Below, in pieces: positions 287 to 1,347 of a stretch of 23,819 nucleotides of DNA (position 1 is its first letter; every line of letters starts with the position of its first letter). The notes beneath the pieces were generated by a model. That model saw only the letters and a program-made list of their open reading frames with translations. It was not told where the DNA came from and did no database searches. The position numbers and the translations under genes are program-made. Source of the stretch: a virus; IMG/VR virus record IMGVR_UViG_3300028854_000054, positions 1 through 23,819 of that record; one strand, 5' to 3'.

Positions 287-342
287 ATTTAAGTTATATA
301 ATTTATAAAGTTTATATTTTATAGATTTTGTATAACTTAAAT
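287..342 (+). repeat. 12-bp perfect inverted repeat overlapping the promoter
   Basis: The arms at 287-298 and 331-342 are exact reverse complements (12 of 12), separated by 32 bases of AT-rich sequence. The right arm fills most of the spacer between the two promoter boxes at 327-330 and 347-354. It could be a hairpin ending the upstream transcript, although no T-run follows, or an operator for a protein regulating the promoter. Only the repeat itself is directly seen. Confidence 0.6.
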
Positions 343-354
343 ACATTACCTTTG
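327..354 (+). promoter_or_regulatory. Bacteroides-type promoter of the structured RNA locus
   Basis: TACCTTTG at 347-354 matches the Bacteroides -7 box TAnnTTTG. A TTTG at 327-330 lies upstream as a -33 box, but the 16-base spacer is a few bases shorter than the usual 19-21. Transcription would start a few bases after the -7 box, near 360. That is where the long closing stem of the RNA structure begins (361). The agreement between predicted start and structure boundary is the main support. Confidence 0.55.
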
Positions 355-360
355 TACTTA

Positions 361-565
361 AATCACTCATAAATTGACTGGTTCGTTTCGCCAGACTTCA
401 TGTGTAAAAGAAGACTAATAATCGTGTTGAAAGTGGTAACCTCACAAGTTTGACTGATTTAATTCAAGATTGATACGGATTTATACAGTGGTACGGAACA
501 CGACTTATTCCACTAATCCCTTGTAGCTCGTCAATACCAGAGTGCATTTCAATTTATAAGTGATT
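361..565 (+). other. 5' domain of the structured RNA, closed by a 16-bp stem
   Basis: Bases 361-376 pair with 550-565 with a single C-A mismatch at 368/558, enclosing a domain of 205 nt. Inside, 422-428 pairs perfectly with 497-503 (7 bp). Bases 378-382 can pair either with 390-394 locally or with 536-540 near the closing stem, so alternative folds are possible. The domain starts at the predicted transcription start and ends nine bases before the tRNA-like element. Confidence 0.6.
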
Positions 566-574
566 TTTAATAAT

Positions 575-658
575 GGAGAAATAGAACGTAATTGAAAGCA
601 TCCTGCACTTCTAATGCAGTGTCATATGACCTTGTAGGTTTGAATCCTACTTTCTTCA
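575..658 (+). tRNA. tRNA-Arg(UCU)-like element with unusual D and variable arms
   Basis: The 7-bp acceptor stem (575-581 with 651-657, one G-U pair), 5-bp anticodon stem (603-607 with 615-619) with loop CTTCTAA giving anticodon TCT, and 5-bp T stem (634-638 with 646-650) with loop TTTGAAT are all intact. Two parts are abnormal. The D arm (584-601) has almost no stem. The variable region (620-633) is 14 nt and contains GTC-ATAT-GAC, a small extra stem not expected for an arginine tRNA. CCA is not encoded. It may be a divergent phage tRNA reading AGA, or a tRNA-like part of the surrounding RNA. AGA is a frequent arginine codon in the genes here, which fits a real decoding role. Confidence 0.65.
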
Positions 659-661
659 CAT

Positions 662-766
662 AGAAAATAGATTGCTGGAATACCAGTTAGGTAGAGAATG
701 CATAGGTGTGAAGCATAGATGTATGTGGAGTCTAAGTATTACTAGGAGACATCTAATCTATTTTCT
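662..766 (+). other. RNA domain closed by a 12-bp perfect stem
   Basis: Bases 662-673 and 755-766 are exact complements, closing an internal loop of about 81 nt that carries further small hairpins. The domain begins four bases after the tRNA-like element, so processing of that element would release it. The interior does not give a proper T loop or an anticodon loop with T33, so this is not a second tRNA. Confidence 0.55.
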
Positions 767-940
767 TTCTTATAATTAAGTGAAAAAGGGTTTATAGTAA
801 CTAAATCACAAACCAAAAACCCTGAGGCTTATCATATTTATTATGATTTTGTCGACAGACCATTGGGTAATTCCATAGGAGTGTTGTTTAGGTGATTAAA
901 ATGATTGGTCTGGCATTAATAAATTAAAATTATCACGGGA

Positions 941-979
941 ATAGCTCCACGATTCTGAAAAGAGGCTATGTAATTCAGA
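941..979 (+). other. Possible H-type RNA pseudoknot
   Basis: Stem 1 pairs 941-945 with 965-969. The loop segment 954-959 (TCTGAA) is complementary to 974-979 (TTCAGA), just downstream of stem 1, which is the H-type topology. The two stems are only 5 and 6 bp, so chance pairing in AT-rich DNA cannot be excluded. Confidence 0.35.
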
Positions 980-1080
980 TATTTTAATAATTTGATTTAT
1001 TAGTGGTGACTACTAAAATAGGCATGTTTTAGTATTAAGGTCCGAATCCTTAACAATTACAATAAAATTCAGATTGAAGC

Positions 1081-1144
1081 AAACAAACAGCTACATAGAG
1101 ATGTCTCTATGATTTGTTATAACTTAGGCATAAGTTAGTTTGTT
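1081..1144 (+). other. Three-way-junction RNA element
   Basis: Bases 1082-1088 pair with 1138-1144 (7 bp). Between them lie two clean hairpins: 1094-1100 with 1105-1111 (7 bp, ATGT loop) and 1121-1126 with 1131-1136 (6 bp, GGCA loop). All three stems are free of mismatches. There is no T loop or anticodon loop, so it is not a tRNA. Confidence 0.5.
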
Positions 1145-1313
1145 AGATGTAATAAATGGAATGTGCCAAAATTAAAAGCTACACAATCATGGTAGATAGC
1201 ACAACGAACAAAGTTTATTATTCCTTATGCAAGGGCTGAATTTTATTTTTTAATATAATAGCAGCCTATCTAGAGTAGGAGAGCCAATGTACAAGTATAT
1301 ATTTATACCAATC

Positions 1314-1347
1314 TGGAAGATAGTTTGCCTTCCACTATTATATTTTT
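1314..1347 (+). terminator. Probable terminator of the noncoding RNA locus
   Basis: A 6-bp hairpin (1314-1319 with 1329-1334, 9-nt loop) is followed by a T-rich but interrupted tract. It sits about 20 bases before the first small gene. The stem is short and the T-run is broken, so this may be only a partial terminator that lets transcription continue into the genes. Confidence 0.35.

Follow-up and report, generated by a model that had tools for sequence, protein, structure and literature searches.

The window considered here is the whole of a 23.8-kb virus record (IMGVR_UViG_3300028854_000054; 23,819 nt), whose replication genes (a PolA-type polymerase, helicases, a Sak4-like protein and a primase) have their nearest relatives in crAss-like phages. 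Gene calls stop at position 254 and restart at 1368. What occupies the intervening kilobase? A preliminary description held that no gene explains 255–1367 and proposed a single ornate RNA of about 1 kb, led by its own promoter. The first point is borne out: the interval contains no open reading frame of at least 50 codons in the standard code, and none that is convincing when TAG or TGA is read as sense. A hidden gene in an alternative code was rejected because the frames remain closed, and a tmRNA because none was found there.

The long stems reported within 327–1347 are present. That joining 360–377 to 549–566 has 17 of its 18 pairs, and those joining 662–673 to 755–766 and 1061–1072 to 1236–1247 have 12 of 12 each. 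The region has two perfect 12-bp stems whose loops do not exceed 250 nt, where chance would give 0.05; one dinucleotide shuffle in 100 contained as many, and the other 1-kb pieces of this phage, 21 in all, contain none. Noncoding character and stems beyond chance are what stands of the original observation; the promoter spacing, a terminator near 1347 and folding of the region as a whole do not. The Bacteroides-type promoter has a TAnnTTTG box at about 347–354, but its upstream TTTG is 16 nt off, against an allowed 17–23. TTTG/TAnnTTTG pairs are weakly enriched in the window (5 versus 2.2 expected), with none at 347–354. The only strong terminator in the vicinity lies not near 1347 but at 2549–2580. 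The whole of 255–1367 folds no better than its shuffles (z −0.9), and its 150-nt windows fold no better than coding DNA of the same phage.

The region reads as a series of separate units, comprising a weak tRNA-Arg, stem-closed domains and a conserved element at 779–899. With the features downstream, these are as follows.

360–566, + strand: stem-closed unit with no known homologue, closed by 360–377/549–566; no match in phages
575–659, + strand: tRNA-Arg (TCT)-like gene whose variable arm is long (called by ARAGORN; Rfam score 24.3 bits, below the cut-off of 29)
661–767, + strand: stem-closed unit with no known homologue, 12-bp perfect stem
779–899, + strand: phage double-pseudoknot RNA, type A, with BLAST homology to L077 and G004
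905–1060, + strand: stem-closed unit with a T-arm-like hairpin (about 1036–1052) at its end; chance-level phage matches
1061–1247, + strand: stem-closed unit with no known homologue, 12-bp perfect stem
2405–2478, + strand: tRNA-Met (ARAGORN; Rfam 53.5 bits), a probable downstream part of the transcript carrying 779–899
2549–2580, + strand: intrinsic terminator of 13 pairs, the sole strong one nearby, 3′ of the tRNA-Met

Folding of the first unit gives z −1.0; 661–767 (−2.8), 905–1060 (−2.4) and 1061–1247 (−3.3) fold better than their shuffles, but these values are selected ones, as the borders were picked by the stems. Searches of phages with 361–570 and 905–1345 gave nothing convincing. These units, too, may prove to be small RNAs. 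The T-arm-like hairpin TAAGGTCCGAATCCTTA at the end of 905–1060 recalls the tRNA-like 3′ end of T4 rnaC (AACCGGGTTCGAATCCCGG). Since the only strong terminator nearby follows the tRNA-Met, the natural unit is probably a transcript that starts near 361, extends to 2580 and bears tRNAs, small genes and noncoding units. Just 5′ of the proposed start, at 280–349, lies a 22-nt inverted repeat (86%), a candidate operator or terminator; nowhere else in the region is local folding as strong (z about −5). An AT-rich stretch at 21655–21736 is similar to it. Noncoding sequence 5′ of the tRNA-Met (2314–2363) shows 80% identity over 51 nt with a noncoding stretch in the tRNA arrays of two relatives, L351 and L354.

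It is the element at 779–899 that can be followed into other genomes. BLAST of the whole region against the phage collection returned no match. Relatives reached through neighbouring proteins gave one local match, between window 778–847 and L077 2512–2583 (82% identity), and a second match was found in a crAss-like record, G004 (E 9e-14), in which the distant pairing is kept with other letters, AATTTCC/GGGAAATT against AAATCA/TGATT of the window. With the G004 copy as query, weak matches appeared between the genes of unrelated phages of Vibrio, Proteus and Erwinia, in several cases within tRNA arrays. Further BLAST searches added phages of Klebsiella, Rhizobium, Pseudomonas, Bacillus, Flavobacterium and Pectobacterium and T4-like phages of Escherichia, and more than 100 viral contigs came out of pattern scans. 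The T4-like phages mogra and PM2 match the covariance model and T4 itself does not. In a pattern scan of bacterial genomes most of the 40 matches were chance-like and three (L178, L188 and L193) were real; single queries of E. coli genome and plasmid collections returned no match. Among 150 genomes of one bacterial family the element occurs only in the genome used as centre (G035), on a contig with 19 tRNAs and a long open reading frame read as phage-like. In every sample taken the element behaves as a phage RNA.

These surveys brought up other noncoding sequences. L003, a phage that has the window's neighbouring HAD-like gene in common, also has GGTTTATAGTAANNAAATC and GAGTAGGAGAGC, but neither CAAACC nor a model match, and was rejected as a homologue; the likeness is treated as chance or as unrelated. 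Its positions 6470–8770, about 2.3 kb with no convincing gene (standard code or TAG read as Q) and no Rfam match, are a candidate large noncoding RNA, partly present in L091, L096, L098 and L102. Between the tRNAs of crAss-like arrays many noncoding modules are kept from phage to phage (for example L353:12897–13465 with L363:9485–10673 and L352:5434–5594 with L363:2532–3605, among others; conservation reaches, in examples, 70% over 414 nt and 82% over 132 nt). They may be further RNA families; none clearly resembles the stem-closed units of the window. The array of L077 contains at 2805–2850 the start of a tRNA-like sequence (TAGCTCAGTTGGTTCAGAGCGC) where no tRNA is called, possibly an interrupted or degenerate tRNA. 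Genes for tmRNA (RF00023) occur in the phage contigs L085 (3355–3725; a crAss-like relative) and L234 (5848–6215).

That 779–899 belongs to a widespread family of phage RNAs with the fold given below is virtually certain. The helices and the internal loop were read in the window sequence and in the alignment.

779–802, + strand: helix P0, 779–781/800–802 (AGT/ACT), its loop containing GAAAAA, the P1 5′ strand and AGTA
788–822, + strand: helix P1 (pseudoknot), GGGTTT 788–793/AAACCC 817–822
804–897, + strand: helix P2 (pseudoknot), AATCA 804–808/TGATT 893–897, 5 of 5 pairs
809–892, + strand: internal loop CAAAC 809–813 against T(T)TAGG 887–892, and helix P3, CAA 814–816/TTG 884–886
823–883, + strand: variable arm, in which GACAGACCATTGGGTAATTCCATAGGAGTG (854–883) is the subtype hairpin; a near-identical arm occurs in L142, L160, L171 and L235

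P1 crosses both P0 and P2/P3, and the RNA is therefore doubly pseudoknotted. The type A order runs P0 5′ strand, GAAMAA, P1 5′ strand (GGGTTN), NNAGTA, P0 3′ strand, P2 5′ strand and CAAAC, followed by P3 5′ strand (CAG or GAG), P1 3′ strand (NAACCC), a variable arm usually starting with YGA, P3 3′ strand (CTG or CTC), TTAGG and P2 3′ strand. Members are about 75–130 nt long, that of the window about 120 nt, and the core has more than 30 bases that are invariant or nearly so, of which many are unpaired; its invariant motifs are GAAMAA, AGTA and CAAAC/TTAGG. The window has the GGGTTN/NAACCC helix (788–822), in which AGTA follows the 5′ strand and CAAAC precedes the 3′ strand, and its P2 joins the stretch before CAAAC to that after TTAGG. 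It deviates from the exact CTGTTAGG or CTCTTAGG motif, reading TTGTTTAGG, with an extra T in TTAGG (seen also in L257) and a compensated first base: the last pair of P3 is A–U in place of G–C. Because the motif is set by the majority of members, this deviation is treated as variation. The arrangement GGGTT..CAAACGAG..AACCC may resemble a stretch of 16S rRNA, a likeness that plays no part in the argument here.

Some members are circularly permuted, with all contacts retained and only their order changed. In type B the CTGTTAGG–P2′ piece is found upstream, the RNA stops after CCCGAAAGACCCGAAG, and an additional closing stem beside a tRNA is frequent; in the crAss-like relative G011 the variable arm is upstream as well (27.8 bits, E 0.003). 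Retention of every contact implies that the ends of the RNA are not part of its job.

The evidence that carries the fold is covariation. The preliminary description had named compensatory changes in homologues as a test of its stems, and for 779–899 the result is strongly positive, since all four helices covary. Among 47 distinct members 98.5% of helix cells are paired, as against 73.5% after shuffling, and the covariation score is 0.626 as against 0.120 (equalled in 0 of 500 shuffles); sliding the partners by 1–3 columns lowers pairing to 35–54%. All 47 aligned members form the inner two pairs of P0, which take up to five pair types; the third P0 pair (779–802) is read from the window sequence. 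P1 is invariant except for its sixth pair, which varies on both sides (UA, AU, CG, GC), and P3 exchanges CAG/CTG and GAG/CTC jointly: CAAACCAG always accompanies CTGTTAGG, and CAAACGAG always accompanies CTCTTAGG, in the sets counted. Each of the five P2 pairs takes all four Watson–Crick types. An unselected test, in which the P2 partners were set by the TTAGG anchor alone and never by pairing, found 98.9% of cells paired over the first four pairs in type A (n=66; 41% with random partners) and 94.8% in type B (n=29; 53%). Kinship can inflate shuffle tests, yet the phages that carry the members are unrelated, and the four Watson–Crick types recur at each inner pair of P2. With the window, L077, L121 and L257 left out of its training set, a covariance model recovers 779–899 at 59.7 bits (E 1.1e-9); the first model, with the window in its training set, gave 63.5 bits. 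Folding energy overlooks such RNAs, for this covariation-proven element alone reaches a z of only −0.6.

The element has no match among the 4227 models of Rfam 15, either in the window (E up to 5) or in 18 member loci (E up to 1), and no description of such an RNA was found in open-access text, though a catalogue such as PMC8040213 might still list one. Relative to Rfam 15 and the literature searched, the family may be a new class of phage RNA. The suggestion of a new class thus holds for the small RNA at 779–899 and fails for a 1-kb RNA; that a structured noncoding phage RNA lies here beside tRNAs was right.

Genome context bears on what the RNA might do. A tRNA lies on the same strand within 200 nt of 41 of 104 members, whereas places drawn at random from these loci have one so near in 15% of cases; the other 63 members, many of them on short loci, have none at that distance. 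Within tRNA arrays the element typically starts 3–7 nt after one tRNA and ends 0–5 nt before the next, a spacing that makes it resemble one more product of the array; in the window it starts 119 nt after the tRNA-Arg. Of 45 whole records searched, most of them picked for holding a member, 31 gave a match (positive records span 32–382 kb) and none had a second strong copy. About one copy per positive record is expected of a dedicated RNA gene and not of a repeated processing or anti-termination site. There is no shared neighbouring protein gene, any one family occurring in at most 7 of the 104 loci, which argues against a gene-specific cis regulator. The spread over phages of distant hosts points to a target present in all of them.

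The preferred reading, to which a probability of roughly 0.45 may be given, is that the element is a stand-alone structural RNA that is freed from a tRNA transcript, acts in trans and binds a conserved host component. It would be made within the longer tRNA-bearing transcript, which would start near 361 and stop at the terminator that ends at 2580. Between tRNAs it could be released by cleavage at, or trimming to, its neighbours, through 5′ maturation of the next tRNA and 3′ maturation of the preceding one. The folded core, with GAAMAA, AGTA and CAAAC/TTAGG, might then bind a component conserved across bacteria, for example a core RNA-processing, transcription or translation factor. Each of these steps, from transcription to the kind of target, is proposed from sequence and context, and the element sequence is itself suggestive of no host partner. 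Against a trans-acting RNA stands the position of many members in gaps between protein genes, where tRNA processing would not release them.

It is possible, if unlikely, that the family is instead a small self-cleaving ribozyme of a new class, its targets being the phage tRNA precursors and mRNAs in whose spacers it sits. The compact double pseudoknot, with its many invariant or near-invariant unpaired bases, speaks for this; natural circular permutation was known chiefly from hammerhead and twister (PMC10085705), and the position in tRNA spacers is like that of theta ribozymes (PMC10879173). A cutter of tRNA precursors is nevertheless hard to reconcile with about one copy per genome despite many tRNAs per array and with the absence of a fixed cleavage border beside the tRNA, and the family fits neither an HDV-like descriptor nor any Rfam ribozyme model. 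The broader proposition of a circularly permuted self-cleaving class, found in tailed phages of several bacterial phyla and unlike any known ribozyme fold, is doubtful. Similarly improbable is a role in cis within long phage transcripts, whether in anti-termination, as a barrier to RNases or as a site of processing. For such a role speak the strand shared with the neighbours in annotated examples and the places in untranslated spacers and at operon ends; it is disfavoured by about one copy per genome, the inconstant position in operons and the lack of a common neighbouring gene.

That the whole of 361–1347 is one giant ornate RNA, with 779–899 as a domain, now seems very unlikely. Several rare long stems speak for it, as do the long conserved noncoding modules in tRNA arrays of crAss-like relatives. 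The single RNA is unsupported, because a tRNA-Arg-like gene lies inside it and the conserved unit of about 120 nt stands alone in other phages; its total folding energy is ordinary, and the other stems are without detected homologues, so that covariation cannot address a 1-kb architecture. Least probable of all is a riboswitch or other metabolite-sensing leader, since the aptamer-like pseudoknot with invariant loops and the placement of some members directly 5′ of a start codon are outweighed by the lack of a common downstream gene, by members between tRNAs or at operon ends that govern no downstream gene, and by permuted forms without a constant expression platform.

A structured RNA kept at about one copy per genome in phages of Proteobacteria, Bacteroidota and Firmicutes, and through reordering of its parts, points to some general role during infection of which annotated genes give no hint. 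The RNA is open to direct test, as members occur in phages grown on laboratory strains, namely Escherichia phage mogra (type B; host K-12 MG1655) and Bacillus phage Eldridge (type A, like the member in phage Va1), and with the covariance model any phage genome can be annotated for the family.

Of the known systems nearest to the family, GOLLD and ROOL, to which the preliminary description had looked, are noncoding RNAs of phages and prophages near tRNA arrays, GOLLD often exceeding 800 nt (PMC12286853). The family is like them in being a phage noncoding RNA of unassigned function near tRNA arrays, but they are far larger than its 75–130 nt, and membership is unsupported, as neither Rfam model matches the region at the gathering threshold or at E up to 5. 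The small stable RNAs rnaC and rnaD of T4 likewise lie within a phage tRNA cluster; kinship was rejected, as the sequences, compared by eye, show no resemblance and T4 yields no model match. Hammerhead and twister ribozymes (PMC10085705) share with the family one compact core that is naturally permuted in circular fashion; no Rfam model matches it, and its own cleavage is putative. Theta ribozymes are minimal HDV-like ribozymes in phage tRNA arrays that use a catalytic C and cut exactly at the tRNA 3′ end (PMC10879173). A descriptor of our own for HDV-like folds (nested P1-P2-P3-P1.1, catalytic C in J4/2) found no match in 255–1367, against a background of about 0.8 start per kb. The family differs from theta ribozymes in helix order, in its invariant bases, in its essentially single copy per genome and in its permuted forms, and shares with them the character of a small pseudoknotted RNA of tailed phages that often adjoins tRNAs.
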